From Porticoccaceae bacterium (GTDB taxonomy: Bacteria > Pseudomonadota > Gammaproteobacteria > Pseudomonadales > Porticoccaceae), in the NCBI GenBank assembly GCA_017858135.1, contig JAFMBY010000005.1:1-57669 (forward strand): DNA of 57,669 nucleotides, read 5' to 3'. Made by a program: the position numbers and the translations under genes. Positions within the stretch are counted from its first letter, which is position 1; each line of letters begins with the position of its first letter. Below the pieces are notes generated by a model. The model had not been told where the DNA came from, did no database searches, and saw only the letters and a program-made list of their open reading frames with translations. Shown here one piece after another: positions 1,252 to 47,273 of the stretch.

Positions 1252-2019
1252 TTATGCCTCCCCTGTTTTCAAATGACTTATCAGTGGTGAGAACCCTGAA
1301 TCACCCAGCCAGTAGCGCACCAGATTATCCACACCACGAGTGGTTAAGGTCGCACCGGCGAGACCATCGATCTGAGACTCGGAACCTGCACGGTTCATAT
1401 CCGCCTTACCTTTTAATACAGTGATCGCCAAGTCGCCGGCGTTGTAGGCTTTCTTGCCCACCCAGCTGGCTTTCCATTTAGGGTTGTCAATCTCACCACC
1501 GAGACCCGGCGTTTCGGCATGCTCATAAAAACCAATACCGGCAACAGTCTCGAGATCGGATTCCAGAGCGATAAAGCCGTACAGCGTTGACCAAAGACCA
1601 TAGCCTTTGATCGGCAGAATGATTTTCTCAAGACCCTGCTCGCCTTCCACTATGTAGACAGTGGCGAAATTGGCACGACGCTTAATCTTGGCAATATCTT
1701 CGTCACCGGAAAGAGCGACCGACTGTGCCGGATCTTTAGAGGCTTTGCGCTGATCATAGACAGCGGGGTCAACTGCATCGCTAAAGCGACCCGTTTCCAT
1801 ATCGACAATACGGGTCGTAATCTGCTGAAACTGAGTCTCAACATCAATACCGGCTTTTAATAAGCCCGCAGAGGCGAGAATATTGGTTTTTAAATCCAAT
1901 ACCTTATTCGCGTCCTGCATCGGTCGCAGTATCACCGCGGCGCTGGATACGACTACTGCGCAGACAACGCAGAGCAGTGCGGCAACGCCAAACGTTTTCT
2001 TAATAGAGTCACTAGCCAC
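1252..2019 (-). CDS. nqrC: Na+-translocating NADH:quinone reductase subunit C
   Basis: Subunit carrying a covalently attached FMN. It has one N-terminal membrane anchor (about residues 9-30) followed by a periplasmic FMN-binding domain. The flavinylation motif is visible as LAGATLTT, with the acceptor threonine at about T224 in this numbering (family consensus S/T-G-A-T; here an Ala replaces the leading Ser/Thr). The start is GTG and overlaps the end of nqrB by 8 bases. FMN attachment in the family needs ApbE, which is not in this window. Confidence 0.97.
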
Positions 2020-3205: not shown

Positions 3206-3209
3206 GGTC

Positions 3210-29937: not shown

Positions 29938-30741
29938 TTATTGGAACAGCTGACGAATCGATTCGCGGTAATTGCGGCTGACTTTAAGCGTTTGCCCCTC
30001 GGAGAGATGCAGCAAACTACCGCCCTTTTGCAGCGGGGTTATGGTCACAACGCGCTCGATATTGACCACTGTAGAGCGGTGTATACGGGCAAAAATTTTG
30101 TCATCTAATTTTTCCAGCAGCTCTCTCAAGGTACTGCGCACAATATGAGTTTCGCCCAGCGCGTGAACACACATGTAGTCGCCAGCAGCGTCCACCCAGT
30201 CGATATCATCGAAGGGAATCACTTTGACCACACCAGAGTCGCGGATTAGCAACTTTCGTTTCATTCCCTCAGGCAGATCTGTTGACGCGGCAGATCCGGC
30301 CTCGCTGTTTAAACGCTTGGTAATCTCATCGATAGCGCCAAGCAGAGGTGTCTTTCGACCCTCTCCGTCGGGCAAAGAATGACGCTCAACTGCCCGCTCC
30401 ACGGCTCGTTTAATGCGCTCCGGGTCCAGTGGTTTGAGAACATAATCAACAGCGTGCATATCAAACGCATCAATGGCGAACTGATTGAAGGCTGTGGCAA
30501 AAATCACCATCGGCATAACATCGGACTGCATCGCTTTGACCACTTCGAAGCCATTAATGCCTGGCATTTGAATATCTAAAAACATCAAATCGGGCTGCAA
30601 TAAACTAGCGGACGCAATGGCATCGCGACCATTTTTGCATTCGCCAATCAATTCAATATCGTCGATGGCGCCTAAAATAGAGCGCAGCAGATCCAGCGCT
30701 AGAGGCTCATCATCAACAATAATCGTTTTCAGCTTAGACAT
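29938..30741 (-). CDS. LytTR-family response regulator
   Basis: Receiver domain (IIVDDEPLALDLLRSIL, phospho-acceptor Asp about 56 in PDLMFLDIQMPG, conserved Thr/Lys in ATAFNQF and VLKPLDP) joined to a C-terminal LytTR DNA-binding domain (KVIPFDDIDWVDAAGDYMCV, FARIHRSTVVNIERV). I use ATG 30741; the alternative is GTG at 30753. The kinase gene lies directly upstream with a gap of about 33 bases, and the GH3 gene downstream after 258 bases. LytTR proteins bind tandem direct repeats, none of which I could identify here. Confidence 0.93.
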   Translation of the reverse strand: MSKLKTIIVDDEPLALDLLRSILGAIDDIELIGECKNGRDAIASASLLQPDLMFLDIQMPGINGFEVVKAMQSDVMPMVIFATAFNQFAIDAFDMHAVDYVLKPLDPERIKRAVERAVERHSLPDGEGRKTPLLGAIDEITKRLNSEAGSAASTDLPEGMKRKLLIRDSGVVKVIPFDDIDWVDAAGDYMCVHALGETHIVRSTLRELLEKLDDKIFARIHRSTVVNIERVVTITPLQKGGSLLHLSEGQTLKVSRNYRESIRQLFQ

Positions 30742-30774
30742 AATAATTTGCACTCACCCATAGCTAATACCTGC

Positions 30775-31935
30775 TTAGCTACTGTATTTAAATTCACCAC
30801 TGTTCTCTGCCATCTGCTTTTTAAGCGGCAGACGAATATAAATCTTTAGGCCACCCACGTCAGGGCGACGCAATTCAAACTCATAATTTTCACCATAAAA
30901 GGCTGTCAGCCGGTCAACGGTATTTTTCAGACCAATTCCGGCCCCGGAGGCTATGGTCTGTTTACTTCCCTGAATGCCGGGACCAGTATCGCTGACCTCA
31001 ACAATCAAGTGCTCTCCGTCAAGTTCGGCACGTACCATTATTTTACCCCCATTTTCGGCGGGGGCAATCGCATATTTGATCGCGTTCTCAACCAGCGGCT
31101 GCAGCAGCAAACTGGGGATTTTCACATCATAGGCCGCAGGGTCAATATCAAAATCAAGTTCCAGACGGTCAGCGAAACGCGTCTTCTCAATATTGAGATA
31201 CAATTTTAGGGCCTCGACTTCCTGTTCAAGAGTTACCCTCCTGACCGGGTCATTATCCAGTGAATAGCGCAAAAAACTGCTTAACTGCATAATCATTCTA
31301 TTGGCATTGGCCGTATTTTGACCGACCACCAATGCAGAAATGGCATTTAATGTGTTGAATAAAAAATGCGGATTGAGCTGATATCGCAGCATTTTAAGCT
31401 GAGCTTCTTGCGCAACGGTTTCTGCCCGACTGCGCTTGAGCTGCTCTTCTTTGCTCTCTGCCGCAACCCTAAGCAGCGTTTCATGCTCACTTTGCAATAA
31501 TTGATAATACTTTATGCCATGATAAAACGCTGCCCAGCATAAAAAAATCATGATCGAACCAAACAGCCAGCCACCAAAATCCGACCAGACATCGGTCTCG
31601 TCGGTCATCCACAGGAAGGTGCCAATTCGCAAAACGGACCACAGCAGCGAGCAGACCAAAACTGACGCCATCGTCAGTAGTAACCTAAAGGTTAAAGGCT
31701 TGTGCCAGAGATAGTGAAACACCGATCGTAGCGGCCACGAAACCACGATGCCCAACAGCGATTGAACGAGGGTGTGGGAAATATAAGCGAAGCTCTGCTG
31801 GTTGTACCAAAGCGTTAAACTAAAATAGCTAATCAGCGAGAGACTAAACCACCCCATAACCTGCAAAAACAAGAACTGCGTATCGCGATCGCGATACAGC
31901 TTGCCAAATAACGGATAGAGGGTAGTCTCATTCAT
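30775..31935 (-). CDS. LytS-type sensor histidine kinase
   Basis: 386 residues. The N-terminal ~150 residues carry four or five hydrophobic helices without a recognised sensor domain. A short coiled linker (about 155-185) leads to the His_kinase motif LRYQLNPHFLFNTLNAISAL with phospho-accepting His about 190. The ATPase domain has PSLLLQPLVENAIKYA (N box), VSDTGPGIQG and GAGIGLKNTVDRL (G boxes). It is upstream of and likely coupled to the LytTR regulator, forming one two-component system. Confidence 0.93.
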   Translation of the reverse strand: MNETTLYPLFGKLYRDRDTQFLFLQVMGWFSLSLISYFSLTLWYNQQSFAYISHTLVQSLLGIVVSWPLRSVFHYLWHKPLTFRLLLTMASVLVCSLLWSVLRIGTFLWMTDETDVWSDFGGWLFGSIMIFLCWAAFYHGIKYYQLLQSEHETLLRVAAESKEEQLKRSRAETVAQEAQLKMLRYQLNPHFLFNTLNAISALVVGQNTANANRMIMQLSSFLRYSLDNDPVRRVTLEQEVEALKLYLNIEKTRFADRLELDFDIDPAAYDVKIPSLLLQPLVENAIKYAIAPAENGGKIMVRAELDGEHLIVEVSDTGPGIQGSKQTIASGAGIGLKNTVDRLTAFYGENYEFELRRPDVGGLKIYIRLPLKKQMAENSGEFKYSS

Positions 31936-32135
31936 TCAGGCGCCTTTTGTCTCGACCTTATAGTTGTGCCTCCATAATAGAGCTTTAACGTAAAAAGACA
32001 AAGGTCAGTCAAGCAAAACTCTGCTTGAGACTGTCACTTTTAATCGCTCAGTTTGCTGATAAACTGCTGTGCAATCAAAGTAGGCTTACCTGTATGCTCA
32101 ACAGACCCAACCACAATTCGCACTTGATCGACTAT

Positions 32136-32723
32136 ATGGGCATCAATGTGCTCAAGGCATCACACCCGCAGGTGCGCAAGCTCAAGCGCCAGCAGCAGGG
32201 TCACTCGGCGCACGGCAACAAAGTATGGCGGTCGAGCTTTGTGTTAATGGATTATTTGAGTACCTGGGAAATTCCACCGGGTAGCAAGGTGCTTGATGTG
32301 GGTTGTGGCTGGGGACTTGCTGGTGTTTACCTGACCAAGCATTACCAAGCTGAGGTAACGGGCCTGGATATCGATGACTCAGTCGAGCCTTTTTTTAAGC
32401 TCCAGGCAGAGATTAATCAGTGCACCATCAAATTTGAGCAACGCAGTTTTGAATCACTCAATAAACACGATTTGGCGCCTTACCACACACTGATGGGCAC
32501 GGACATTTGCTTCTGGGACGAACTGACAACACCGCTGTTTAATTTGCTGCGCCGAGCCCTCGACGCGGGTTGTCAAAATATTCTGATCGCAGATCCAGGC
32601 AGACCGCCTTTTTGGGCACTGGCTGATCTATGTGTCGCCAAGTTAGATGGCGAGGTGGTCAGCCGAACTATTCAGCAACCGTGGAAGAGTGAAAAATATA
32701 TCCTTCGAATCGGCGACCAATAA
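32136..32723 (+). CDS. Class I SAM-dependent methyltransferase
   Basis: Rossmann methyltransferase with the SAM motif GSKVLDVGCGWGLAGVYL followed by the acidic strand VTGLDIDDS. The substrate is not evident; the motif VLMDYL ahead of the SAM site is seen in the small family related to protein/nicotinamide methyltransferases. I choose ATG 32136 (MGINVLKASHPQVRKLKRQ); ATG 32094 and TTG 32025 are in frame upstream and no ribosome-binding site settles the question. It is divergent from the LytS gene and precedes the TonB receptor by 328 bases. Confidence 0.8.
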   Translation: MGINVLKASHPQVRKLKRQQQGHSAHGNKVWRSSFVLMDYLSTWEIPPGSKVLDVGCGWGLAGVYLTKHYQAEVTGLDIDDSVEPFFKLQAEINQCTIKFEQRSFESLNKHDLAPYHTLMGTDICFWDELTTPLFNLLRRALDAGCQNILIADPGRPPFWALADLCVAKLDGEVVSRTIQQPWKSEKYILRIGDQ

Positions 32724-33051
32724 CGTCACACCCCCGCTCTTATGGCTAACGTTGCGTTAACTGATAGGCCTTTACTGAGTAGCCGTCGAAACGTTGGAGA
32801 GACTCTTTTTACGCAACCGGGCGGGCACCAAACGACCGCTACATTTCAGCACCTAGCCCGGACTTTGACCTCAACTAACGCCATCTGGCGGGTCATGTCT
32901 TCCTTAAACCCAAAAAAATAACCTTTTATCGCATATGGCGTTGTTTGCCGCGCATGAACAGGTAGAGTACTGCTGGGGACGTAGTAAATATAAAAAGCGA
33001 CAGCTAACCTATGTTCATAGATTTTTTTGTTCACCCAGGGGGTTAATCAGT
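32724..33051. other. Leader/promoter region of the TonB-dependent receptor
   Basis: 328 bases without a supported gene. Two AACGTT palindromes lie 42 bases apart (32748-32753 and 32790-32795). The first is embedded in GTTGCGT, which pairs with ACGCAAC about 60 bases later. They are weak operator candidates only. The ribosome-binding site AGGGGG ends about 9 bases before the receptor start at 33052. Confidence 0.35.
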
Positions 33052-36006
33052 ATGTTATTTAAAAAGAGAATTCTTTCTAGTAGCGTTGCCTTAGCGCTAG
33101 TTGGATCAGTTGTTCCAGCTTATGCTCAAGATGGCGCGCTAATTGAAGAAGTTATTGTTGAAGGCGGTATCCGCGGAAGTCTTAAGCGTTCAATGGACGT
33201 TAAAAGAGACTCGGCCGGTGTCGTTGACGCAATTTCGGCAGAAGACATGGGTAAATTCCCAGATACTAACCTGGCAGAGTCGCTGCAGCGTATCACCGGT
33301 GTATCGATCAGCCGTCAGCGCGGTGAAGGCAGTCAGGTTACGGTTCGTGGCTTTGGCCCAGAATACAACTTGGTGACCTTAAACGGTCGTCAGATGCCTA
33401 CTCACAGCAACACTAGCCGTTCTTTTGACTTTGGTGACCTTGCCTCTGAGGGCATTGCTGGCGTTCAGGTATACAAGACTGGTCGTGCCGATGTCCCAAC
33501 GGGTGGTATCGGTTCTTCAATTAATATCTCAACAACACGTCCCCTTGATGCCCCAGGTCAAGTTGCTAGCTTTACTGCGAAAATGGTCAACGATACGTCG
33601 ACCAGAGAGGGCGATGAAGTTACTCCAGAGTTCTCGGCTATCTATTCAAACACATTTGCCGACGACACTATCGGTATCGCCATTACTGCTGTTTCGCAAG
33701 AGCGTAACAATGGCGTAAACGCAGTTGAAACGACTGGCTGGTTTACGCGGACTGGTGATCATAGTGGTGCTGGCGGTATTCCGAATAACGAAAACCAAGT
33801 TAACCGCTCAACCAGCGCTGATGAGTTCTACTCTATCCCTCAGCAAATTGCATACGCAATCAACGAATACGAGTCAAAGCGAACGAATGGACAGCTCGTC
33901 CTGCAATGGGCGCCAAGTGAAACCGTCACTGCATCGCTCGACTACATCCACTCTGAGCTAGAGCTCGATCACACGATGAGTGATCTCTCTGCGTGGTTTA
34001 GTAACTCTGCAGCGGTAAGCCAGTCGAGTGTTTGGAATGACGGCGCGCAGCGTTCACCGCTAATGTATGCCGAGACACACAACTACGCTGACTATGCGAT
34101 GGGCGTGCACAGAGATGGCAGCATCAACGAAAATAACTCGGTTGGTTTGAATCTAGAGTGGCAGGCAATGGATAACCTGAACCTAGAGCTTGACTACCAT
34201 GATTCATCTGCCAAATCTGGCACCAACAGCCCCTACGGCACTAGCTCGCTGGTGACTATGGCGTCCTTTAACAAGGTCGGCTCGGCTGTCTACTACGGTA
34301 AAGAGATGCCGGTTCTCGAATTGAATATGAATTCGGGTGCTGATGGTGCTGAGCGCCCTCTTTATAAGGACGATATGGTCGTCACAGGTAGTGTGTTCGG
34401 CAACCAAGCCGCAGAAATGAATATCGAGCAAACTAAGCTTAGCGGTGTTTATGAAATCTCTGACAGCACCAGCATCGACTTTGGTCTGCAGCTGACAGAA
34501 ATGGATAACCGTTATGTGAGCTCAAATGTTCAGCTCGATAACTGGGGTGGATTCACTCAACCAGGTGAACTGAGTGCAGTGATAGAGCGTTCGTCAATGG
34601 CTGGCCAATTTGATCAGCTCGCTGGTAGCAATGATCCACGCCAACAGACTGAATACTTTACGACCTCACTGGAAGAAATTATCGCCGTTGCTGAAGCAAG
34701 CTATACAGCCCGTGGAGCAGACTACGCAGCAGTTGGTGACTGTGGCACAGGCTACTGCGCCTCTTCCGACTGGACCGTTGACAAAAGAACTGCCGAAGAA
34801 ACCAAAGCCGCGTACATTCAGTTGAACCACTCTTCGTACGTCAACGACTTGCCTATGAACGTGCAATTCGGCCTTCGCTACGAAGAGACCGAGGTTACTT
34901 CATCGGCTCTGGCGCCAACTTATGATGAAGTCTACTGGTTGGGTGGCAATGAGTTTACTATGGTGCCCGCAACTGACGCCGAGGGTAATGCTATCCAAGC
35001 CTTCGACGAATACACCGGTGACTATTCAATTGTTCTGCCAAGTATTGATTTCGATATCGAAATTATTGAAAACCTGGTTTTGAGAGCCTCCTACAGTACA
35101 ACCATGACTCGTCCAAGCTTCACGGATATTCAGGGCGGTATCACCGTTGATGGAACGTCGTTTAAGAATACCGGTGGTTTTGCTGGTGGTGGTAACCCAG
35201 GCTTGCAGCCAATCGAATCAGATAACATCGATTTTTCGGTTGAGTGGTATTATGGTGACGCCAGCTATGTGTCGGTTGGCTACTTCGAAAAAGACGTAGA
35301 GAACTTTATCGGCTCATCGACTCGCGAAGGTGTCACACTGTTTAACCTCAACTGGCCACTGGGCGGCGATTTATATAATCAAGCTGTTGCTGCGAGTGGT
35401 ATCGACCCGCTTAAATACACTGAAGTGGGAGCCTATATCTTTGCCAACTACCCGAATGACCCCGCCATCGTTGGCGATCGTATCTATGGGGTTGACGGTG
35501 ATCCACTGGTAACTTTTGAGGTCGATAGCCCCGCCAACCAGGAAAAGGCTAAGGTTGATGGTGTTGAGCTCAACATCCAGCATAACTTTGGTGATACTGG
35601 CTTCGGTATGATTGCCAATGCTACCTTTGTAAACGCTGATGTCGCTTATGACAATATGAAGATCAACTCTCAGTTTGTTCTTAATGGCCTGAGTGATTCA
35701 GCTAACCTGGTAGCGTTCTACGATAAAGATGGCATTCAGGCACGTTTAGCCTACAACTGGCGTGATGCATTCCTCGCCGGTGTTGGTCAAGGTGCTGGCA
35801 CCTACAGCAACCCAACCAATGTAGAGGCCTATGGTCAGCTCGACATAAGTGCTAGCTATGACTACAGCGACAACCTGACTGTCTTCTTTGCTGGAATCAA
35901 CATCCTAGAAGAGACCTACAACGTCTATGGTCGTGATGAGTTGCAAGTATTGCAGGCTGGCCAAACTGGCGCGCGTTATGATGTTGGTGTACGTTACAGC
36001 TTTTAA
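33052..36006 (+). CDS. TonB-dependent outer-membrane receptor
   Basis: 984 residues from ATG 33052 (MLFKKRILSSSVALALVGSV, signal peptide ending AYAQ). Right after it is the TonB-box-like EEVIVEGG, then the plug domain with KFPDTNLAESLQRITGVSI, GSQVTVRGFGPEYNLVTLNG and VYKTGRADVPTGGIGSSINI. The barrel ends in DVGVRYSF with the terminal Phe that BamA recognises. The upstream start at 32935 is not used, because it lacks a signal peptide. This subfamily occurs in Caulobacter, Xanthomonas and Alteromonadales, often beside the halogenase/SapC genes found here. The substrate is unknown; oligosaccharide or peptide uptake is possible. Confidence 0.96.
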   Translation: MLFKKRILSSSVALALVGSVVPAYAQDGALIEEVIVEGGIRGSLKRSMDVKRDSAGVVDAISAEDMGKFPDTNLAESLQRITGVSISRQRGEGSQVTVRGFGPEYNLVTLNGRQMPTHSNTSRSFDFGDLASEGIAGVQVYKTGRADVPTGGIGSSINISTTRPLDAPGQVASFTAKMVNDTSTREGDEVTPEFSAIYSNTFADDTIGIAITAVSQERNNGVNAVETTGWFTRTGDHSGAGGIPNNENQVNRSTSADEFYSIPQQIAYAINEYESKRTNGQLVLQWAPSETVTASLDYIHSELELDHTMSDLSAWFSNSAAVSQSSVWNDGAQRSPLMYAETHNYADYAMGVHRDGSINENNSVGLNLEWQAMDNLNLELDYHDSSAKSGTNSPYGTSSLVTMASFNKVGSAVYYGKEMPVLELNMNSGADGAERPLYKDDMVVTGSVFGNQAAEMNIEQTKLSGVYEISDSTSIDFGLQLTEMDNRYVSSNVQLDNWGGFTQPGELSAVIERSSMAGQFDQLAGSNDPRQQTEYFTTSLEEIIAVAEASYTARGADYAAVGDCGTGYCASSDWTVDKRTAEETKAAYIQLNHSSYVNDLPMNVQFGLRYEETEVTSSALAPTYDEVYWLGGNEFTMVPATDAEGNAIQAFDEYTGDYSIVLPSIDFDIEIIENLVLRASYSTTMTRPSFTDIQGGITVDGTSFKNTGGFAGGGNPGLQPIESDNIDFSVEWYYGDASYVSVGYFEKDVENFIGSSTREGVTLFNLNWPLGGDLYNQAVAASGIDPLKYTEVGAYIFANYPNDPAIVGDRIYGVDGDPLVTFEVDSPANQEKAKVDGVELNIQHNFGDTGFGMIANATFVNADVAYDNMKINSQFVLNGLSDSANLVAFYDKDGIQARLAYNWRDAFLAGVGQGAGTYSNPTNVEAYGQLDISASYDYSDNLTVFFAGINILEETYNVYGRDELQVLQAGQTGARYDVGVRYSF

Positions 36007-36077
36007 GTAACGCACTCTGTCGTAATGCTCTGCAAACCAATGCAGTTCGGTGAGAAATCACCAGCATGATGAAACCG

Positions 36078-36115
36078 GAAGCCGCTTAAATTTATTTGAG
36101 CGGCTTCTTTCTTTC
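36078..36115 (+). terminator. Rho-independent terminator after the TonB receptor
   Basis: Stem GAAGCCGCT/AGCGGCTTC (36078-36086 and 36099-36107) with a 12-base AT-rich loop, followed by TTTCTTTC. It lies 72 bases after the receptor stop and separates it from the halogenase operon, whose promoter should lie in 36116-36237. A small hairpin AACCC-CGAG-GGGTT (36203-36216) sits shortly before the halogenase start, which lacks an obvious ribosome-binding site. Confidence 0.85.
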
Positions 36116-36237: not shown

Positions 36238-37809
36238 ATGAATCACACTATCAATAGAATCGTAATCGTTGGCGGCGGCACCGCAGGCTGGCTTAGTGCC
36301 GGTATAATCGCAGCAGAACATCGCATCACAGCTGATAGCACTGGTCACAGCTTTGACTTAACAATCGTTGAGTCTCCCGACATCCCTACCATTGGCGTCG
36401 GTGAAGGCACCTGGCCGTCAATGCGTTCGACACTGCAAAAGATGGGTATTTCAGAAACTGACTTCTTCCGTGAGTGCAGTGCTAGCTTTAAACAAGGCAC
36501 ACTGTTTAAAGGCTGGCGCAACGGTGGCGACGATACCTACTGCCACCCTTTCAGCGCACCCCACGGCTATACCGAGGTCAACCTGGCCCCACACTGGCAG
36601 CCCTCTCGAGACCAAATCGGCTTTGCCGATGCCGTCTCGCCACAGAGTGCACTATTCGCTGACAGGCAGGCGCCGAAGCAAATTTCAACGCCGGAATATG
36701 CCTTTAACGTCAACTACGGCTACCATCTCGACGCCGGCAAGTTTGCCGAGTTTTTACGCAAGCACTGTGTTGAAAAGCTCGGCGTAACCCACATCAAAGC
36801 CAATGTCACTGGCATCAATTCAGCGGAGAATGGTGATATAGCGGCCATCGAGACAGACTCTCACGGTGCGATTGAAGGGGATCTGTTTATTGACTGCAGT
36901 GGTCAGCGAGCTCTACTGATCGGCGATCACTTTGATATTCCGCTGCAGTCAAAACACAATATTCTATTCAATAACACGGCTCTGGCAGCACAGGTTGCCT
37001 ACGACTCGGACAGCGATGCCATTGAGTCCTGCACTCTGTCGACAGCACAGTCAGCCGGATGGATCTGGGATATAGGCCTACCCACTCGGCGCGGTATAGG
37101 CCATGTCTACTCCAGCGATCATAATACTGAAGAGCGTGCCAGCGACGAGCTTTTGAGCTATATCGCTAAGACAGTGAGTAAGAATGCGGCTGCCTCGGCC
37201 ACTATGCGCAAGGTTCACTTCAGCCCTGGGCACAGAGCCAAGTTCTGGCATAAGAACTGTGTTGCCATAGGTATGTCAGCCGGCTTTATCGAGCCACTTG
37301 AGGCCTCAGCACTGGTTCTGGTGGAGCTCTCAGCCAGCATGATCGCCGAGCAACTACCGGCCAACCGCGACGTGATGGACCTGGTTGCCAAACGTTTTAA
37401 TGATAAATTCCTCTATCGCTGGGACCGCATTATTGAATTTCTCAAACTGCACTATATCCTCAGTCAACGACAGGATAGCGAGTACTGGCGCGATAATCGC
37501 GACGCCGCGAGCATCCCCGACAACTTGCGCGACCTGGTCGAGCTGTGGCGCCATCAAAGCCCCTGGCATAGAGATACCAACAGTGCCGACGAAATGTTCC
37601 CTTCAGCCAGCTTTCAGTACGTGCTCTACGGGATGGACTTTGAGACACAGCCCAGCACAACTCAACGGCGTTCAGATGTTATAGCGCAGGCACAGGTGCA
37701 AGCTCTGTTTCAGGAGAATGCTCAACGCCGGGCACAACTGCAGTCCTCGCTGCCAACTAACCGCGACTTAATTAATAAAATTCATACCTACGGGTTCCAA
37801 AAAATTTAA
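36238..37809 (+). CDS. Flavin-dependent halogenase-family protein 1 (tryptophan halogenase family)
   Basis: 523 residues of the PrnA/RebH fold, which use FADH2, O2 and halide to halogenate aromatic substrates. The FAD motif IVIVGGGTAGW is at residues 8-18. The catalytic Lys is K85 in SASFKQGTLFKGW and the conserved Glu is E355 in GFIEPLEASA. The usual WxWxIP motif reads WIWDIG at 275-280, so the proline is replaced by Gly. No Leu/His changes elsewhere suggest pseudogenisation. It is the first gene of a four-gene operon (39 bases to sapC). A flavin reductase is needed in trans and none is in this window. The substrate is unknown. Confidence 0.9.
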   Translation: MNHTINRIVIVGGGTAGWLSAGIIAAEHRITADSTGHSFDLTIVESPDIPTIGVGEGTWPSMRSTLQKMGISETDFFRECSASFKQGTLFKGWRNGGDDTYCHPFSAPHGYTEVNLAPHWQPSRDQIGFADAVSPQSALFADRQAPKQISTPEYAFNVNYGYHLDAGKFAEFLRKHCVEKLGVTHIKANVTGINSAENGDIAAIETDSHGAIEGDLFIDCSGQRALLIGDHFDIPLQSKHNILFNNTALAAQVAYDSDSDAIESCTLSTAQSAGWIWDIGLPTRRGIGHVYSSDHNTEERASDELLSYIAKTVSKNAAASATMRKVHFSPGHRAKFWHKNCVAIGMSAGFIEPLEASALVLVELSASMIAEQLPANRDVMDLVAKRFNDKFLYRWDRIIEFLKLHYILSQRQDSEYWRDNRDAASIPDNLRDLVELWRHQSPWHRDTNSADEMFPSASFQYVLYGMDFETQPSTTQRRSDVIAQAQVQALFQENAQRRAQLQSSLPTNRDLINKIHTYGFQKI

Positions 37810-37848
37810 TATCTGCAATTCACATAACGTGGATTCAGGGGAGTAAAC

Positions 37849-38574
37849 ATGAGCAGTTTTGCCATCGTCGACAGCAGCGTTCACGGGGACTTAAAAGTTA
37901 ATACAAGCAGGGGCGTTGAATTTGGCGATAACCTGATGTTCACCATGACCTATCCAATGGAGTTCAGGGATATACAGTCATGCTATCCCATTTTTTTCAG
38001 CAAAGATCCCGAGACAGGACAATTCTATCCGGTTGCACTGCTCGGCTTTGAAGATCAAACCAACCTCTTTCTCAACGATGACCAGTGGGATGCGACCTAT
38101 ATTCCAATGACGGTGCGCCGACAGCCGTTTCTGATTGGTTTTCAAGCCGACCCCGATAAGGGTGAAGGCGCCACAAAGCCGGTGGTCTCTATCGATATGG
38201 ATAGTCCTCGGGTGTCCAATGGTGATGGTGAGTCGCTGTTTACCGAGGATGGCAAGCCAAGTGAATTTCTGCAAAAAACTATCGGCACACTAGAGGCGAT
38301 TCATCGCGGTCTGGAGCACAATAAAGGCTTTATAACAGCGCTGCTTGAACATGATCTGCTGGAATCCTTCAGCCTCGAGATCACACTCAAGGACGGCTCC
38401 AACAACAAGCTGATGGGCTTCTACACTATCGCAGAAGAAAAACTACAATCGCTCGACGGCGAGACACTGGCAAAATTCAATACTCAGGGTTACCTGCAAT
38501 CTATCTATATGGCAATGGCCTCATTCTCGCGAATTCGCCCGATGATTGATAAGAAAAATGCTGCGCTCGATTGA
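37849..38574 (+). CDS. sapC: SapC-family protein
   Basis: 241 residues of the SapC family (Pfam SapC, named after a Campylobacter S-layer locus), with the typical start SSVHGDLKV and the conserved PIFFSKDPETGQFYPVALLG, followed by QPFLIGF, RVSNGDGESLFTEDGKPS and the C-terminal YTIAEEKL. No signal peptide is visible, so it is probably cytoplasmic. No enzymatic activity is established to my knowledge. A GGGGAGTAAAC ribosome-binding site precedes ATG. It overlaps the cupin gene by 4 bases, a sign of translational coupling. Confidence 0.92.
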   Translation: MSSFAIVDSSVHGDLKVNTSRGVEFGDNLMFTMTYPMEFRDIQSCYPIFFSKDPETGQFYPVALLGFEDQTNLFLNDDQWDATYIPMTVRRQPFLIGFQADPDKGEGATKPVVSIDMDSPRVSNGDGESLFTEDGKPSEFLQKTIGTLEAIHRGLEHNKGFITALLEHDLLESFSLEITLKDGSNNKLMGFYTIAEEKLQSLDGETLAKFNTQGYLQSIYMAMASFSRIRPMIDKKNAALD

Positions 38575-39611
38575 TCCGGCGACCAGGGTTATCGACTGTG
38601 CTTGACATTAATAGCCAAGTGAAGGAAATCCTCGACTGTAGGCCGGATGCGATATCCGACGAAGTCTTGAGCTCAAATCAGCCCTTGGTTCTGCGAGGGC
38701 TCGCCTCCAGCTGGCCCATGGTTACCGCGGCAGAGCACTCTGGGGCCCGAGCGGCTGAATACCTGAGTAACTTTGACAGTGGCAAGCCGCTTACTGCCAT
38801 GGTTGGCAACGCTGAGATGGCGGGTCGAATTTTTTATAATTCTGATCTAAGTGGTTTTAACTTTGAATACCAGCGCCTGCGCCTTGCAGAGGTACTTGAA
38901 CAGCTGTCAAGCAATGCAGGCAACAGCGCGCCGTCGACACTCTATGTTGGCTCAACCAATGTCGATCACTGGCTGCCTGGGTTTCGCCAACATAATGATC
39001 TCAATCTCGGCGAGCGAAATCCAGTTGTCAGCGTCTGGGTAGGCAATCGCAGCCGCATCGCCGCACACTATGACTTTCCGACCAATATCGCCTGCTCTGT
39101 GGCCGGGCGCAGACGGTTTATCCTGTTCCCACCAGATCAACTCGACAATCTCTATATCGGACCTCTGGACGTTACACCTGCTGGGCAACCCATCAGCCTG
39201 GTAGACTTTAATGCGCCCGATTATCAACGCTATCCTAAATTTCGTCAGGCCTTGCAGTCGGCTCAAACCGTTGAACTGGCCCCTGGCGATGCCATCCTTA
39301 TCCCGAGTATGTGGTGGCATCATGTTGAAGCGCTCGACGACTTCAATGTGCTGGTGAATTACTGGTGGCGCAGCACGCCACACTATCTGGGCGGCCCACT
39401 TAATGTTCTTCAGCACGCCATCTTGGGGCTACGTGATCTTCCTGAGGAACAGCGAGAGGTTTGGAAACAGCTATTTGATCATTATGTTTTCAGCCCTGAC
39501 GCAGAGAGTATCAAGCATATCCCAGAGCACGCCAGAGGCGTTCTCAACCCCATAGACGCAGAGACAGCAAAGCAACTCCGCAGTATGCTGGCGCAAAAAC
39601 TCAATCACTAA
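38571..39611 (+). CDS. JmjC/cupin-8 Fe(II)/2-oxoglutarate-dependent oxygenase-like protein
   Basis: 346 residues resembling FIH-type cupin_8 proteins. The Fe(II)-binding H-x-D is visible as AAHYDFPTN (H166, D168) and the second His is in GDAILIPSMWWHHVEAL (H250 or H251), matching FIH's IPMYWWHHIES. Hydroxylation of a peptide or small molecule is the family reaction; its substrate is unknown. The start is uncertain: TTG 38571 overlaps the sapC stop, while GTG 38598 has AGGG upstream and may be the true one. It is the third gene of the operon. Confidence 0.9.
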   Translation: MIRRPGLSTVLDINSQVKEILDCRPDAISDEVLSSNQPLVLRGLASSWPMVTAAEHSGARAAEYLSNFDSGKPLTAMVGNAEMAGRIFYNSDLSGFNFEYQRLRLAEVLEQLSSNAGNSAPSTLYVGSTNVDHWLPGFRQHNDLNLGERNPVVSVWVGNRSRIAAHYDFPTNIACSVAGRRRFILFPPDQLDNLYIGPLDVTPAGQPISLVDFNAPDYQRYPKFRQALQSAQTVELAPGDAILIPSMWWHHVEALDDFNVLVNYWWRSTPHYLGGPLNVLQHAILGLRDLPEEQREVWKQLFDHYVFSPDAESIKHIPEHARGVLNPIDAETAKQLRSMLAQKLNH

Positions 39612-39633
39612 AAGTAGACCTGGAGAGATGACA

Positions 39634-41124
39634 ATGGCAACCGACAATGCAAGAAAAGTTGTTATCGTCGGCGGTGGCACAGCAGGCTGGATGGCTGCCG
39701 CATCACTGACCAAGCTGATCGGACCTAATATCGATGTCAGTGTTATTGAATCTGATGAAATTGGCACAGTGGGCGTGGGTGAAGCAACTATTCCAACCAT
39801 GATGACCCTTCACCAGCTATTAAAAATTGATCAACGGGAATTTATGGCGACCGTGCAGGGCACCTTTAAGTTGGGTATCTCCTTTGAAAACTGGAAACGG
39901 CCGGGGCATAGCTATATCCACTCGTTCGGACGAACCGGGCAAGACTGTTGGGCTGGCGGTTTTCAGCACTTTTGGATGAAAGGTAAGCAGCTCGGTATAA
40001 ACGAAGAATACGGCCGCTACAGTGCCGAACTGATGGCCGCCAAAGCCGGTAAATTTGCTGTACTGCCGAATAACGGGTTGAGCTATGCCTTCCATATGAA
40101 CGCCACTCTCTATGCAAAGTTTTTGCGCAATATGGCCGAACAGAATGGTGGTAAGCGCATCGAAGGCAAAATAGTGCAGGTCGATACCAATAGCAGTAAC
40201 GGCTATATCGATAGTGTCACGCTCGAATCGGGACAAACGGTCAGCGGCGATCTATTTGTTGACTGCAGTGGTTTTCGTGGCCTGTTAATCGATCAGACCC
40301 TACATACAGAATATGAAGACTGGAGTAACTGGCTGCCCTGCGATAGCGCCGTGGCCGTGCAGACTGAGTCTGTTGGCGAACCCATTCCCTACACTAGAGC
40401 GATTGCCCGGGATGCGGGCTGGCAATGGCGTATCCCACTGCAATCTCGGGTTGGCAACGGCATGGTGTTTTGTAGCAAATTTATCTCGGATAACGACGCG
40501 ACTGAAAGCCTGCTGCGGCACGTGGAGGGTACGCCACTCACCACGCCGCGTATTATCAAGTTTCGTACCGGCCAGCGTATGCAGCACTGGAACAAAAACT
40601 GTATCGCGTTGGGCCTTGCCAGTGGTTTTGTTGAACCGCTGGAGTCGACCAGTATTCATCTGATTCAGCGCGGTATTATCCGGCTACTGCAGATGTTCCC
40701 CTACAACGGCATCAAACAACCTGATGTCACCGAATTCAATCGTCAAATGCGCGATGAATTTACCTTTGTAAGGGATTTTATCGTGATGCATTATCATCTT
40801 ACTGAACGCGAGGACACGCCGTTCTGGGCGCACTGTAAAAGCATGCCAATACCAGACACTCTGCGTCATCGCCTCGACCTGTTCAAGCAGACCGGCCATG
40901 TATTCCAGGCTGCAGGGGATGTGTTTGCGGAAAACAACTGGACGCAAGTGATGCTAGGTCAGGGATTGGTTCCTGAGCAGTACCATCCTATTGTCGACAG
41001 TATGAGTGATGAGGAGCTGCGCAACTTCCTTAATGGGCTAGCCGGCAATGTCGATCATCTCGTCAATCAGCTGCCCAGCCATCAGGCTTTTATCGCCAAC
41101 TATTGTCCCGCTGAGCCACTGTAA
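39634..41124 (+). CDS. Flavin-dependent halogenase-family protein 2 (tryptophan 7-halogenase-like)
   Basis: 496 residues with all canonical halogenase motifs: FAD site VVIVGGGTAGWM near 9-20, catalytic Lys K79 in TFKLGISFENW (same number as PrnA K79), complete WQWRIP at 263-268 and Glu E337 in SGFVEPLESTS. It is therefore likely an active halogenating or brominating enzyme. Start ATG 39634 fits the GGAG site 8 bases upstream better than ATG 39628. It is the last gene of the four-gene operon and a distant paralogue of the first gene, not a tandem copy. Confidence 0.93.
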   Translation: MATDNARKVVIVGGGTAGWMAAASLTKLIGPNIDVSVIESDEIGTVGVGEATIPTMMTLHQLLKIDQREFMATVQGTFKLGISFENWKRPGHSYIHSFGRTGQDCWAGGFQHFWMKGKQLGINEEYGRYSAELMAAKAGKFAVLPNNGLSYAFHMNATLYAKFLRNMAEQNGGKRIEGKIVQVDTNSSNGYIDSVTLESGQTVSGDLFVDCSGFRGLLIDQTLHTEYEDWSNWLPCDSAVAVQTESVGEPIPYTRAIARDAGWQWRIPLQSRVGNGMVFCSKFISDNDATESLLRHVEGTPLTTPRIIKFRTGQRMQHWNKNCIALGLASGFVEPLESTSIHLIQRGIIRLLQMFPYNGIKQPDVTEFNRQMRDEFTFVRDFIVMHYHLTEREDTPFWAHCKSMPIPDTLRHRLDLFKQTGHVFQAAGDVFAENNWTQVMLGQGLVPEQYHPIVDSMSDEELRNFLNGLAGNVDHLVNQLPSHQAFIANYCPAEPL

Positions 41125-41206: not shown

Positions 41207-41236
41207 AAAAAACCGCGCCCAAAAGCGCGGTTTTTT
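41207..41236. terminator. Strong bidirectional terminator
   Basis: 12-bp perfect stem AAAAAACCGCGC/GCGCGGTTTTTT with a 6-base loop CCAAAA. T-runs follow on both strands, so it serves the halogenase operon (stop 41124, plus) and the repeat lipoprotein (stop 41253, minus), which converge here. Confidence 0.92.
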
Positions 41237-41252
41237 AATCACTCAACGTCTA

Positions 41253-43769
41253 TCAGTCAACTTTTACAAACTTAAACTGCCAGAACACACCTGTGCCCGT
41301 TTCAATGGACACTGTCATGCTGCTTCCGTCAAATGCCATCAACGTAACATTGTAGCTAATTGACTCAGGAACTGCGGGTGGCGTTGCTGCCGACAGTTCA
41401 CCGGCATTCACCGCTTTGGCAAGACCAATATGCGCGCCTGAACCATTGATCGTCAACACACTGTCAGCGTAGGTATAAGTCGCATCAGTGTGCGAGCCAT
41501 CATGCGGCGCGACTGGCGTGCCACAATTTTCTGGATCAGTGCCCTGCCATGGCTCCATCCAAGTCGAATCACCCATATCCTGAGAGAACGAGCCATCGGC
41601 AGCAAACGTATAAGTGTCATCAAACAGACAAGCTCGAGCACCTGTCGCTTCCGCTTCAGAGTTAGACCACCACTCTATACTGCCGAGTGAGGGACCCACA
41701 CCCAGAGCACCTGCGGTCGGAGAAAGCTTCCAGGTACCAACGATTGGTGATGCGACAGCTTCAGCTTCAGCACCGTCTTTAACCAGTTTGAACTGCCAGA
41801 AGACGCCAGTACCAGTCTCAATAGACAGTGTCATGCTGTTGCCATCAAAGGCCAACAACGTCACGTTGTAGGTGATTGACTCAGGAACTGCGGGTGGCGT
41901 TGCCGCCGACAGTTCACCGGCATTCACTGCTTTGGCAAGACCAACATGGGCACCTGAACCATTGATTGTCAGGACATCATTAGCAAAGGTATATGTCGCA
42001 TCGGTATGCGATCCATCATGCGGCGCAACCGGTGTGCCACAGGCTTCTGGATCACTACCCTGCCACGGCTCCAGCCAAGTCGAGTCACCCATATCCTGAG
42101 AGAACGACCCATCGGCAGCAAACGTGTAGGTGTCATCAAAAATACAAGCTCGCGCACCAGTCGCTTCGGCTTCAGAGTTAGACCACCACTCTATACTGCC
42201 AAGTGACGGGCCGACACCCAGAGCACCTGCAATCGGCGCTAATTTCCAAGTTCCGACGATAGGAGACACTTCTTCAACAACTTTGACAAACTTAAAGGTC
42301 CAGAATACACCTGTTCCTGTCTCGATCGTCGCCGTCATATTGAGGCCATCAGAAGACATTAGAGTAATGCTGTAATTGATCGACGTCGGAACCGCAGGTG
42401 GCGTTGCCGCAGACAGTTCACCCGCATTGACCGCCTTGGCCAAACCGATGTGCGCGCCTGAGCCATTAATCGTCAGAACATCATTTTCATACGAGTAGGT
42501 CGCATCTGTAGCAGAACCATCATGTGGGGCTACTGGCGTACCACAGGCTTCTGGGTCAGTGCCCTGCCAAGGTTCCATCCAGGTTGAATCGCCCATATCC
42601 TGAGAGAATGAACCATCCGCAGCAAAGGTGTAGGTGTCGTCAAACAGACAGGCACGTGCGCCGGTTGCTTCAGCTTCTGAATTCGACCACCAGTCGACGC
42701 TACCTGAGAACGGACCAACACCAAGGGCACCAGCCACTGGAGCGAGTTTCCACGTACCAACGATTGGAGACGCCAACACTTTAACCAGTTTAAACTGCCA
42801 GAAGACACCGGTTCCTGTTTCGATTGACAGCGTCATCGAGGTACCGTCAGCAGATAACAGAGAAACTGAATAGCTAACATAGTCGGGAATAGCTGGAGGC
42901 GTTGCAGATGATAGTTCACCCGCATTGACTGCTTTGGCCAAACCAACGTGAGATCCGCGGCCATTAATAGTCAGCGTATCGTTCAGCAGGGTGTAGGTCG
43001 AGTCAGTCTGCGAACCATCATGCGGCGCAACTGGCGTACCACAGGCTTCTGGATCAGCACCCTGCCATGGCTCCAGCCAAGTCGAATCACCCATATCCTG
43101 AGAGAATGAACCATCGGCAGCAAACGTGTAGGTGTCATCAAAGATACAAGCTCGCGCACCAGTCGCTTCGGCTTCAGAGTTAGACCACCACTCTATACTA
43201 CCAGCTGCGGGACCAACGCCCAGCGCACCTGCTATTGGAGCTAACTTCCAGGTTCCTACGATAGGATCATCGACCGCACCAGTAGAACACCCATCAGCAC
43301 AGTAAGTCATTGTCGAGTCATCGGTGGTTTCGGTGACAGTCTCTCCGACTTCACCACTGACATCGGTGAAAGAGATGCTAAAGGTAACGTCGCCATCGAC
43401 ATCGTCTTCATTCATCAGTCGCGTCGCACTCCACGAGCGCACACTACCGTTAACATCGACGCTTACACCACCAATAGTGACAACTGGCGTCATCAGAGCT
43501 TCGTCCGATTCGAACTCAAGCGTTACTTTTTCGCCAAGTGCCGCATAAGGACCTAGGTTACCGCCGTTATAAATGGACACATTCAGCAGAGTTGGCGCTA
43601 CGCCATCAGAGCCCGGCTCAGCAAGATCGTTCTCAGTGACAGTACTTCCACCGCCACCACAAGCCGCAAGCGTTAAAGAAACTGACAGTGCGAAAATTGC
43701 ACCGAAGTGATTTGATTGTCGCAGTTTATTAACCCAACTGAGACTGCTTAAAAGCGATCGATATTGCAT
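41253..43769 (-). CDS. Lipoprotein with four tandem ~165-residue modules
   Basis: 838 residues. The N-terminus is a lipoprotein signal with lipobox LAAC at about 34-37 and a GGGG linker, followed by an Ig-like/cadherin-like region (about 60-165). Then come four tandem modules: residues 169-334, 335-502, 503-674 and 675-838, nearly identical and each starting PIVGTWKL. Every module has two Cys (RAC, ACGTP or NCGTP), the WWSNSEAEATGARAC segment and TGTGVFW near its end. I do not recognise a named family; a carbohydrate-binding or adhesive surface role is inference. It is convergent with the halogenase operon. Confidence 0.85.
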   Translation of the reverse strand: MQYRSLLSSLSWVNKLRQSNHFGAIFALSVSLTLAACGGGGSTVTENDLAEPGSDGVAPTLLNVSIYNGGNLGPYAALGEKVTLEFESDEALMTPVVTIGGVSVDVNGSVRSWSATRLMNEDDVDGDVTFSISFTDVSGEVGETVTETTDDSTMTYCADGCSTGAVDDPIVGTWKLAPIAGALGVGPAAGSIEWWSNSEAEATGARACIFDDTYTFAADGSFSQDMGDSTWLEPWQGADPEACGTPVAPHDGSQTDSTYTLLNDTLTINGRGSHVGLAKAVNAGELSSATPPAIPDYVSYSVSLLSADGTSMTLSIETGTGVFWQFKLVKVLASPIVGTWKLAPVAGALGVGPFSGSVDWWSNSEAEATGARACLFDDTYTFAADGSFSQDMGDSTWMEPWQGTDPEACGTPVAPHDGSATDATYSYENDVLTINGSGAHIGLAKAVNAGELSAATPPAVPTSINYSITLMSSDGLNMTATIETGTGVFWTFKFVKVVEEVSPIVGTWKLAPIAGALGVGPSLGSIEWWSNSEAEATGARACIFDDTYTFAADGSFSQDMGDSTWLEPWQGSDPEACGTPVAPHDGSHTDATYTFANDVLTINGSGAHVGLAKAVNAGELSAATPPAVPESITYNVTLLAFDGNSMTLSIETGTGVFWQFKLVKDGAEAEAVASPIVGTWKLSPTAGALGVGPSLGSIEWWSNSEAEATGARACLFDDTYTFAADGSFSQDMGDSTWMEPWQGTDPENCGTPVAPHDGSHTDATYTYADSVLTINGSGAHIGLAKAVNAGELSAATPPAVPESISYNVTLMAFDGSSMTVSIETGTGVFWQFKFVKVD
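41256..43265 (-). repeat. Four tandem ~500-bp intragenic repeats
   Basis: Units at 43265-42768, 42767-42264, 42263-41748 and 41747-41256 (498, 504, 516 and 492 bases). Long blocks are identical or nearly so in DNA, for example the segment encoding DDTYTFAADGSFSQDMGDST and that encoding GLAKAVNAGELS. Unit lengths keep the frame, so recombination between units would change module number without a frameshift. Confidence 0.93.
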
Positions 43770-44281: not shown

Positions 44282-45454
44282 TTACATCCCACCGACAAGA
44301 TTAATCATCACACCAGCGGCCACGGCAGACCCAATCACGCCGGCCACATTGGGGCCCATGGCATGCATCAACAAGAAGTTTTGCGGATTGGATTCGAGAC
44401 CCACTTTGTTAGCAACCCTTGCAGCCATCGGCACAGCGGAGACGCCGGCAGCACCGATCAACGGGTTAACCTTGTGCTTGGCAAAGAGATTCATCAGCTT
44501 GGCCATCAACACGCCTGAGGCTGTACCAATGCAAAATGCCACAGCGCCCAACGCAAGAATACCCATGGTTTCCGGGTTGAGGAATTTCTCAGCACTCATC
44601 TTCGAGCCAACGCCGAGACCGAGAAAAATCGTGACAATATTAATCAATGCATTTTGCGCAGTATCACTGAGACGATTGACCACCCCACACTCGCGCATCA
44701 AATTACCGAAGCAGAACATACCCAATAGTGGCGCGGCATCCGGCAATAACATTGCCACCAATACCAACAGCGCCAGCGGGAATACAATGCGCTCAGCTTT
44801 GGTCACCGGACGCAGCTGTTGCATAGTGATCTGACGTTCAGCGGGCGTGGTCAGTGCACGCATAATCGGCGGTTGGATAATCGGCACCATCGCCATATAG
44901 GAATAGGCAGCTACCGCAATCGCGCCGAGCAGATCGGGCGCCAACTTACTGGTGACAAAAATCGCTGTTGGACCGTCAGCACCGCCGATAATACCGATCG
45001 ACGCAGCCTCGCGAATACTGAAATCGAGAATACCGAAATGGCTCAACGCCACCGCACCCAACACGGTGGTAAAAATACCCACCTGAGCCGCTGCACCCAA
45101 CAATAAGGTTTTTGGGTTGGCCAACAGGGGGCCGAAGTCGGTCATCGCACCGACGCCCATAAAAATCATCAATGGAAATAATCCGGTTTCAATACCACCG
45201 TGATAGATATAGTAGAGCAAGCCGCCAGGGCTTTGCATATGGCCCATGGCATCGTAGACAGGTGCGGCATCAAACCCGGCACCAGGAACATTGGCGAGGA
45301 TCGTGCCAAAGCCGATTGGCACTAGCAGCAGCGGCTCGAAGCCTTTACTGATGGCAAGAAACAGCAAGCCGAGACCGACGATCATCATAATCAATTGATC
45401 GAACTGCATTTGCGCAAGCCCTGAGCTGGCCCACAAACTGATTAAACTTTCCAT
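44282..45454 (-). CDS. oadB: Oxaloacetate decarboxylase, Na+-pumping beta subunit
   Basis: Polytopic membrane subunit that couples decarboxylation of carboxybiotin to Na+ export. The 390 residues carry about nine hydrophobic segments and the family motifs [33 protein letters not shown] and [15 protein letters not shown]. The end [15 protein letters not shown] is also characteristic. The gene sits in the operon oadG-oadA-oadB-bolA. It complements the Na+-NQR found elsewhere in the window. Confidence 0.96.
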
Positions 45455-45467
45455 TTTGAGTGACTCC

Positions 45468-47273
45468 TTAAGCCAGGGTTAGCAGCACATCGCCGACAGT
45501 TACGCTATCGCCACTCTTTGCTCTGACCTCAACAATTTGGCCCGCTTTTGGCGCACTGACCGATGTCTCCATCTTCATCGCCTCAAGAATCACAATGCTT
45601 TCGCCTTCGCTTACCTGCTGTCCGGGCTGCACCAACATCTTGACTACCGTGCCGGCCAGGGGCGCGGCCACTGGGTCGCCACCGGTTGCTGGAACTGCGG
45701 CAGCCGCACTAGCTGTCGTTGCCCCAACACCTGCGCCGGCAATGGCACTAATGTCACCTCCGTTGCTGACAGCCACGGTGTAAGACACGCCTTCAACTTC
45801 CACGGTGTAGATTTCTTCGCCGGCATCATTGGTCTGGACTGTGGTCGTATCTGTGGCCTTGCCTGTGGGCACTGGCTCAAAGGCATCGGGGTTATCTTTA
45901 TTTTGTAAAAACTTAAGACCGACCTGAGGAAATAGTGCGTAGGTCAAGATATCGTCAATCTGACCTTCTCCACCACTGAGCTCAAAACCATGCTCTGCTG
46001 ACAGTCCTTCCAGTTCCAACGTCAGTGCTTCTAGCTCTGGCTCAAGATTATCGGCGGGACGGCAGGTGATTGGCTCTTCACCTTCATCGAGAACCCGCGC
46101 CTGCAACTCAGCATTCATCGGTGCTGGTGTGGCGCCATACTCGCCGCGCAGCACGCCAGAGGTCTCTTTCGAAATCGACTTGTAACGTTCGCCAGTCAGT
46201 ACATTTAAGACGGCCTGGGTACCGACAATCTGTGAGGTTGGGGTAACCAATGGAATAAAACCAAGATCTTCACGCACACGTGGAATTTCAGCTAATACTT
46301 CGTCGAGGCGATCTTCCGCGCCCTGCTGGCGCAGCTGGCCCTCCATATTGGTGAGCATGCCACCAGGCACCTGGGCCACTAGAATACGCGAATCAACACC
46401 GCGCATTGAGCCTTCAAATTCAGAATACTTTTTGCGCACATCTCTAAAGTAAGCGGCAATTTCTTCAAGCTTGACAATATCCAGCCCTGAGTCGCGCTCG
46501 GTGCCTTTAAAGATAGAGACCACGGATTCCGTCGCCGAGTGACCATAGGTCATCGACATCGACGATATGGCGGTATCGACACGGTCAATGCCTGCTTCAA
46601 CACATTTCATAATGGTGCTGGTGGAGAGACCGGTTGTGGCGTGGGCGTGTAACTGAATTGGTATAGAAACAGCCTGTTTAAGCTTGCTGACTAGTTCAAA
46701 ACCCGTATAAGGGGTGAGCAGTCCGGCCATATCTTTAATGCAGATTGAGTGTGCCCCAGCATCTTCAATCTGGCGACCCATATCGACCCAGCGATCCATG
46801 GTGTGCACTGGGCTGACCGTATAAGAAATAGTGCCCTGAGCATGTTTACCTACCTGAACCACCGAACGCAGTGCTGTCTCCAGGTTGCGCATATCGTTCA
46901 TCGCATCAAATACGCGGAACACATCAATACCGTTTATGGCGGCGCGTTCAACAAATTTCTCGACCACATCATCGGCATAGTGACGATAACCGAGAATATT
47001 TTGCCCACGAAACAACATCTGCTGCGGCGTGTTGGGCATCGCCTTTTTGATTTCACGAATACGGTCCCAGGGGTCCTCGCCTAAAAAGCGAATACAGGAA
47101 TCAAATGTCGCCCCACCCCATGACTCCATCGACCAATAACCGATCTGATCAAGCTTTTCAGCGATCGGCAACATATCATCGATGCGCATGCGGGTTGCAA
47201 AAAGAGATTGGTGCGCATCGCGCAGAACAACTTCAGTAATGCCGAGGGCGGCAGGTGTCGAGGGCATATTCAT
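45468..47273 (-). CDS. oadA: Oxaloacetate decarboxylase alpha subunit with biotin carrier domain
   Basis: 601 residues. The carboxyltransferase domain contains [41 protein letters not shown] and [14 protein letters not shown] (Zn-binding His). After a Pro/Ala-rich linker (about 505-525) comes a biotin carrier domain with [14 protein letters not shown], the biotinylated Lys at about 567. The arrangement is the same as in Klebsiella and Vibrio OadA. It lies between oadG (35-base gap) and oadB (13-base gap). A role in pyruvate/oxaloacetate metabolism with Na+ pumping is likely. Confidence 0.96.

Follow-up and report, generated by a model that had tools for sequence, protein, structure and literature searches.

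A halogenase-SapC-cupin operon beside a TonB-dependent receptor of a Porticoccaceae bacterium: conserved receptor linkage and a tentative role in modifying a receptor-linked protein

A 57,669-nucleotide stretch of contig JAFMBY010000005.1 from a Porticoccaceae bacterium (assembly GCA_017858135.1), referred to here as the window, contains a forward-strand operon (36238-41124) that encodes two tryptophan halogenase family proteins, a SapC protein and a cupin oxygenase, and that lies next to a TonB-dependent receptor gene. Comparison with eight genomes and with further SapC and receptor loci showed that the conserved unit is the receptor together with the enzymes, and that SapC marks one receptor clade. 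We tentatively propose, with a probability of about 0.38, that the operon is a receptor-accessory cassette for oxidative tailoring within a carbohydrate-uptake locus, where it modifies a receptor-linked protein. The substrate of the enzymes is probably tied to the receptor and possibly is the receptor itself.

Linkage of the operon to TonB-dependent receptors

The first gene (36238-37809) encodes a halogenase of lineage A, as defined below (Pfam PF04820 Trp_halogenase, 394 bits; PDB 2pyx, 616 bits), and is followed by a SapC gene of the receptor-linked class (37849-38574; PF07277, 238 bits), a gene with a TTG start for a Cupin_8/JmjC FIH-like Fe(II) oxygenase (38571-39611; 247 bits), and a halogenase gene of lineage B, the Xcc4156/BrvH type (39628-41124; 633 bits; PDB 6y1w, 649 bits). 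All four Pfam scores are far above the cut-off. Open reading frames and Pfam matches confirmed the four same-strand genes and the spacing given in the first-pass annotation, namely a 39-base gap, a 4-base overlap and about 22 bases. For the second halogenase, this last interval measures 16 bases if the first ATG is used and 22 bases if the second ATG (39634) is used; the second is the likelier start because GGAGAG at 39621 fits it better. The active-site motifs were likewise found intact, with GGGTAGW, Lys and Glu in the halogenases and HxD..H in the cupin. The receptor (32935-36006, forward strand) matched TIGR01782 with 625 bits against a cut-off of 310, comprising plug and barrel; its start at 33052 is preferred, as a stretch that by eye resembles a signal peptide begins there.

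The linkage was quantified in eight genomes chosen for holding SapC, two from the genus of the host and six from other genera (seven genera in total), a choice biased to SapC and not to halogenases beside receptors. In these genomes, 97 TIGR01782 receptors over the cut-off were compared with 67 halogenase, 26 SapC and 22 Cupin_8 genes (E <=1e-15). Before counting, 10 of 77 PF04820 rows, all below 60 bits, were dropped; matches to PF04820 were likewise obtained in 5 of 14 control genomes including E. coli, and such weak rows are not halogenases. For TIGR01782, which matches in 3 of the 14 control genomes (2 over the cut-off), the rows below the cut-off and one second-half row were dropped. Of the 67 halogenases, 59 had a TIGR01782 receptor within 6 kb, against a chance expectation of 4.3, as did 20 of the 26 SapC and all 22 Cupin_8 genes, and 57 of the 59 halogenases lay on the strand of the nearest receptor. 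The earlier claim that the association of these families with a TonB receptor is conserved was thereby borne out. The remaining 8 halogenases were away from any such receptor. Among the receptors, 42 of 97 had a halogenase nearby and 55 had no halogenase, SapC or Cupin_8 gene nearby. Genomes carried several parallel copies of the cassette, most copies lying next to a receptor, and the number of full-length halogenase-family genes reached 17 in one genome (G252), which is many for one natural product.

The composition of the cassette was examined around 78 receptor-linked SapC genes, including two pairs that share a locus; 77 of the 78 were on the strand of the nearest receptor. A halogenase accompanied 70 of the 78, both halogenase lineages 45 and a cupin 60, and 8 had no halogenase; the flank on one side was shorter than 5 kb for 8 of the 78, so that a few sets may be incomplete. 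Conserved co-occurrence of all four families, whose absence the first-pass annotation had named as a refutation, held only in part: the exact order receptor-A-SapC-cupin-B was found for just 30 of the 78 genes and halogenases also stood next to such receptors without SapC, while the co-occurrence of receptor and enzymes was conserved. Pairwise distances of the operon proteins correlated with those of the receptors (SapC, 0.93 in 56 loci; halogenase A, 0.89 in 44; halogenase B, 0.88 in 44; cupin, 0.76 in 47), the values being uncorrected for the species tree and calculated without a control gene.

A tree of 125 receptors, for which sequences of 67 of the 97 receptors of the eight genomes and two more from fetched loci were available, contained one clade with a support of 1.0 and 76 tips, 74 of which form the group studied. 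A SapC gene lay within 6 kb of 70 of the 74 group members vs 8 of the 51 receptors outside, a difference inflated by loci fetched through SapC; in the eight genomes alone, the counts were 19 of 23 vs 3 of 46. In the tree built from 124 SapC proteins, a receptor was found within 4 kb for 70 of the 72 members of one root clade and for 8 of the 52 members of the other. SapC thus falls into two classes, one of which marks one receptor clade.

SapC was present in 139 of 397 genomes sampled evenly across the phylum (completeness >=90) and in 48 of 94 relatives. No solved relative was detected up to an E value of 1, and AlphaFold prediction with six sequences gave a predicted local distance difference test (pLDDT) value of 57, with no Foldseek match at E 0.001. 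The orphan SapC loci showed no constant partner; 5 of 89 neighboring proteins were flavin adenine dinucleotide (FAD)-linked oxidases and 4 were radical SAM proteins. A FAD-linked oxidase (PF01565/PF02913) adjoins the orphan SapC in two loci (L073:10483-11919 and L087:10488-12020). Viral contigs were scanned with patterns for SapC and the second halogenase, and no relative was confirmed.

An intrinsic terminator with a 14-pair stem and a T tail (36077-36108, forward strand) separates the receptor gene from the operon, and a perfect inverted repeat resembling a bidirectional terminator (about 41208-41237) follows the operon; the flanking terminators proposed earlier were therefore found on both sides, the right one by eye only, since the terminator tool did not list it. 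The scan returned 13 terminator-like sites in total vs 11.2 (standard deviation, 3.2) in shuffled sequences, so that the long left stem alone rises above this background. Given this strong terminator, the operon is either its own transcription unit or is reached by read-through from the receptor gene.

Two halogenase lineages and a FIH-like cupin

In a midpoint-rooted tree of 130 halogenases, the two window genes fell on opposite sides, in lineage A (n=62) and lineage B (n=68). The catalytic Lys and Glu were conserved in all 130 proteins, as K85 and E355 in 62 of 62 members of lineage A and as K81 and E339 in 68 of 68 of lineage B. With a full-length match to the PF04820 profile, GGGxAGW, WxWxI and both catalytic residues, the window halogenases are assigned by sequence to the tryptophan halogenase family. 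Their placement around SapC differed: in all 57 cases that could be placed, lineage B followed SapC, and lineage A preceded it in 43 cases and followed it in 15. The FAD motif began within 30 residues of the reading-frame start in 124 of the 130 proteins (five had it later and one lacked the pattern), which leaves little space for a signal peptide; the halogenases are thus most likely cytoplasmic.

The first halogenase aligned over its full length with 2pyx, which presumably originates from Shewanella; the tryptophan halogenase family proteins 9ltb and 9lu2 also belong to lineage A. PrnA and RebH are halogenases of free tryptophan. The second halogenase matched the indole-brominating enzymes Xcc4156 (6y1w) and BrvH (6frl, 467 bits), which share the lineage B type and the catalytic residues with it, and its alignment to 6y1w contained only one single-residue gap. 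According to passages of the structural report, Xcc4156 is without the substrate-closing loops of free-tryptophan halogenases, has an open active site and may accept peptides (PMC7336383). Because of the nearly gapless alignment, short loops are also expected in the window enzyme. The same passages state that the native substrates of this halogenase type are unknown, and parts of the BrvH report mention a second halogenase gene upstream of BrvH and consider that indole is perhaps not its natural substrate (PMC5945002). The main texts of the two papers mention neither TonB nor SapC. The receptor linkage described here turns the native-substrate question of these halogenases into a testable one in culturable bacteria, and it warns against reading such halogenase genes as antibiotic synthesis.

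The best solved relatives of the cupin were FIH, JMJD5, C2orf60 and JMJD7. FIH, JMJD5 and JMJD7 are protein oxygenases, C2orf60/TYW5 being the exception. The JmjC core aligned with FIH-like relatives over residues 163-281, sharing the HxD..H motif, and the iron triad H166, D168 and H250 was kept in 77 of 77 cupins. FIH uses a Lys for 2-oxoglutarate, and the window cupin differs at this position, where an Arg (R181) was found in 77 of 77 cupins; R181 could replace the Lys of FIH in function.

Carbohydrate genes around the cassettes

The surroundings of the cassettes were surveyed through the three closest genes outside the cassette in each of 30 loci (90 of 148 proteins), and those of orphan SapC through 30 of 39 loci (89 of 191 proteins, 25 commonest families). 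Among the 90 cassette neighbors were 9 LacI regulators, 8 GH3 glycosidases with an ExoP domain, 5 GH16, 4 GH20 and 2 sulfatases, vs at most one each of LacI, GH3, GH16 and GH20 among the 89 orphan SapC neighbors. A GH3 gene lay within 12 kb of 23 of the 78 receptor-linked SapC genes, and two loci (L020 and L055) have a GH5 enzyme bearing CBM6 and CBM35 modules as the next protein. The reverse strand of the window encodes a GH3 glycosidase with an ExoP C-terminal domain (27190-29679) and a LytTR response regulator and His_kinase pair (29938-31935), and L011, L034, L037, L053 and L059 have a pair of the latter type close to the cassette as well. With a TonB receptor, a GH3 gene and a sensor pair, the locus is most likely a carbohydrate-uptake locus, and its glycan is perhaps a beta-glucan. 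The frequent carbohydrate-gene neighbors speak against natural-product synthesis. The glycan itself is an unlikely substrate of the enzymes, since the same enzymes accompany GH3, GH16, GH20, sulfatase or GH5-CBM6 genes.

DUF6445 proteins (PF20043; "unknown function" in Pfam) made up 8 of the 90 cassette neighbors. The profile found 17 in the loci studied (L077, L080, L081, L088, L098, L111, L113, L119, L124 and L204, and in the genus of the host L031, L032, L041, L042, L046, L049 and L063); each of the 17 had halogenase, SapC or receptor genes no further than 7 kb away, a count biased by the choice of loci for SapC or receptors. By coordinates, 9 of the 11 DUF6445 genes of the eight genomes had a TIGR01782 receptor at a distance of 6 kb or less; the host genome has no DUF6445 gene. 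Residues H116, D118, H208 and R226 were kept in 17 of 17 proteins, and this HxD..H..R arrangement, recognized by eye, resembles the pattern of 2-oxoglutarate oxygenases. One further candidate, L120, was rejected as a short-chain dehydrogenase; it was present only in the alignment used for reading the motif.

Proposed function and alternatives

According to our proposal, the halogenases and the cupin would act in the cytoplasm, with SapC serving as a docking or recognition subunit. The halogenases would add halogen, with bromide coming from sea water, and halogen and hydroxyl groups would go onto residues in a protein that is handled together with the receptor. The simplest substrate would be the unfolded receptor prior to export, and the modification would tune receptor folding, ligand contact or recognition. 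A protein partner is favored because the enzyme lineages are constant, the lineage B-type active site is open and relatives of the cupin hydroxylate proteins; since the carbohydrases change while the lineages stay, the favored substrate is a protein linked to the receptor, in the simplest case the receptor itself. The narrower version, in which the receptor family (or a protein exported with the receptor) is modified in the cytoplasm by halogenases of two lineages, the FIH-like hydroxylase and elsewhere DUF6445, guided by SapC, the enzyme set differing between receptors and acting as a modular code, is rather unlikely. If true, receptor halogenation would be, to our knowledge, a new kind of protein modification.

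Several observations weigh against this proposal. A receptor Trp that tracks the halogenases was sought by column enrichment and none was found; a receptor Trp as a simple halogenation site was accordingly rejected. Outside the SapC clade, no aromatic column of the receptor exceeded the shuffle level (the best was Tyr at 409, with a difference of 0.49), and the one column above the 95% shuffle level of 0.52 was a Glu at position 228 of the window receptor; these label shuffles ignore kinship. Near-invariant residues special to the SapC-linked receptor group were N318, E650, D220, E232 and W668, all five of which the window receptor has. W668 was kept in three loci without a halogenase (L020, L026 and L055), three receptors with a halogenase had Tyr, Phe or a gap there, and N318 was kept where the cupin is absent. 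The W668 comparison is a weak test, as the genomes of L020, L026 and L055 hold second cassettes with both halogenases (L025, L028 and L039). A single conserved modification site on the receptor is thus not supported. In addition, we know of no modified receptor peptide, and SapC is without a confident predicted fold, so that its docking role is conjectural. For CciO, an oxygenase encoded beside a receptor, the authors offer ligand-side models in the passages cited (PMC12004947), and parts of a second paper report no CciO role in iron or copper transport (PMC12004943). In locus L110, tandem TIGR01782 receptors, with Tyr and Phe at the W668 position, were observed upstream of one halogenase-SapC pair.

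The first-pass annotation had suggested that the set may modify a peptide or aromatic ligand that the receptor brings in or senses. Its operon, intact sites and receptor tie stood, and the imported ligand as worded did not, because the loci often carry carbohydrate genes and no inner-membrane importer or ligand-making gene is among the operon genes; modification of a peptide or protein is the preferred version. A related alternative is that the enzymes halogenate and hydroxylate in the cytoplasm a small molecule or short peptide that is imported or secreted as a receptor ligand. This would agree with the weak bromination of indole, and not of tryptophan, by BrvH in portions of its report (PMC5945002) and with similar models outlined for CciT/CciO (PMC12004947), and the five near-invariant receptor residues could mean a common ligand element. 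However, carbohydrases and LacI are frequent neighbors, a GH3 gene is near the window cassette, the operon lacks the importer just mentioned, and the enzymes remain constant while the glycan genes vary, which makes ligand tailoring somewhat doubtful. It is improbable that a diffusible halogenated signal or inhibitor is made upon glycan sensing and that the receptor is merely co-regulated: the terminator between receptor and operon, the LacI genes near other cassettes and the two-component system near the window cassette would fit, but the operon has no exporter, ligase or scaffold-making gene, the multiple copies per genome mostly each adjoin a receptor, and the enzyme distances track the receptor distances.

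Even less probable is a loss of halogenating activity in vivo, with the halogenase-family proteins serving as flavin-dependent monooxygenases or redox sensors. PrnA has ESTG at the catalytic Glu, from which ESTS in the window lineage B enzyme and EASA in the lineage A enzyme differ, and the operon has no flavin reductase gene; however, the catalytic Lys and Glu are retained in 130 of 130 proteins, and BrvH and Xcc4156 brominate in vitro according to sections of their reports (PMC5945002, PMC7336383).

Relation to known systems

The neighborhood of TonB receptor, SapC, cupin and halogenase genes is known already. A search of open-licence literature found no paper describing a link between halogenase, SapC and TonB receptor, and the quantified coupling, the two-lineage rule, the SapC split and the finding of DUF6445 as a further part may be stated here for the first time. 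Passages on the CciT-CciO system describe iron import through an outer-membrane receptor that needs an intracellular oxygenase (PMC12004947). In CciT-CciO, PiuA-PiuC and Fiu-YbiX, as far as the cited portions go, a TonB receptor gene stands beside an Fe(II)/2-oxoglutarate oxygenase gene as in the window, but the receptors are of the iron type, the single oxygenase belongs, from its description, to another family, and there is no halogenase or SapC. Carbohydrate utilization containing TonB-dependent transporter (CUT) loci and polysaccharide utilization loci of Xanthomonas, Caulobacter and marine bacteria share the TonB receptor, LacI or sensor genes and glycoside hydrolases with the window and differ in the tailoring cassette; the main text of the CUT paper (PMC1790865) contains no halogenase, SapC, Pass1 or cupin. 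In excerpts of a metatranscriptome study, halogenase transcripts of Colwellia and marine phages were read as bactericidal intermediates or redox modulation of virus-host receptors (PMC11337851); at a guess, these Colwellia genes may belong to receptor cassettes.

Further features of the window and host genome

The host assembly comprises 2.4 Mb in 139 contigs and has two halogenase genes and one SapC gene, and the window receptor is its sole TIGR01782 match over the cut-off. The closest named SapC loci were those of Porticoccaceae Ww453 (88%), HTCC2207 (77%), UBA1989 (74%) and MOLA455 (73%), from which we take the host to belong to the SAR92 clade.

A class I methyltransferase gene (32025-32723, forward strand; PF13649/PF10294; likely start 32094) lies upstream of the receptor. 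Such a gene was beside the cassette in 5 loci, the window and four other SAR92-clade loci, and it followed the last halogenase in L064 and L034. In L034, the receptor, lineage B halogenase, lipoprotein, methyltransferase and response regulator genes are each split into two reading frames, which suggests assembly indels or decay.

Downstream of the operon, a lipoprotein gene on the reverse strand (41253-43769) encodes a candidate surface glycan-binding protein that contains a repeat of roughly 160 residues in four near-identical copies. The model of the repeat had a pLDDT of 57 and a predicted template modeling (pTM) score of 0.60, and its best structure match an E value of 0.011; the matches that followed included several Bacteroides lipocalin-like proteins, which give a hint only of a lipocalin-like fold. 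In L067, a lipoprotein with a similar N-terminus carries CBM60-like modules instead (weak matches under the cut-off), so that the window and L067 show a module swap at a fixed locus. Elsewhere in the window, genes for NQR subunits and a sodium-transporting oxaloacetate decarboxylase were found at 2012-4550 and 44282-47273 (reverse strand), which points to sodium energetics.

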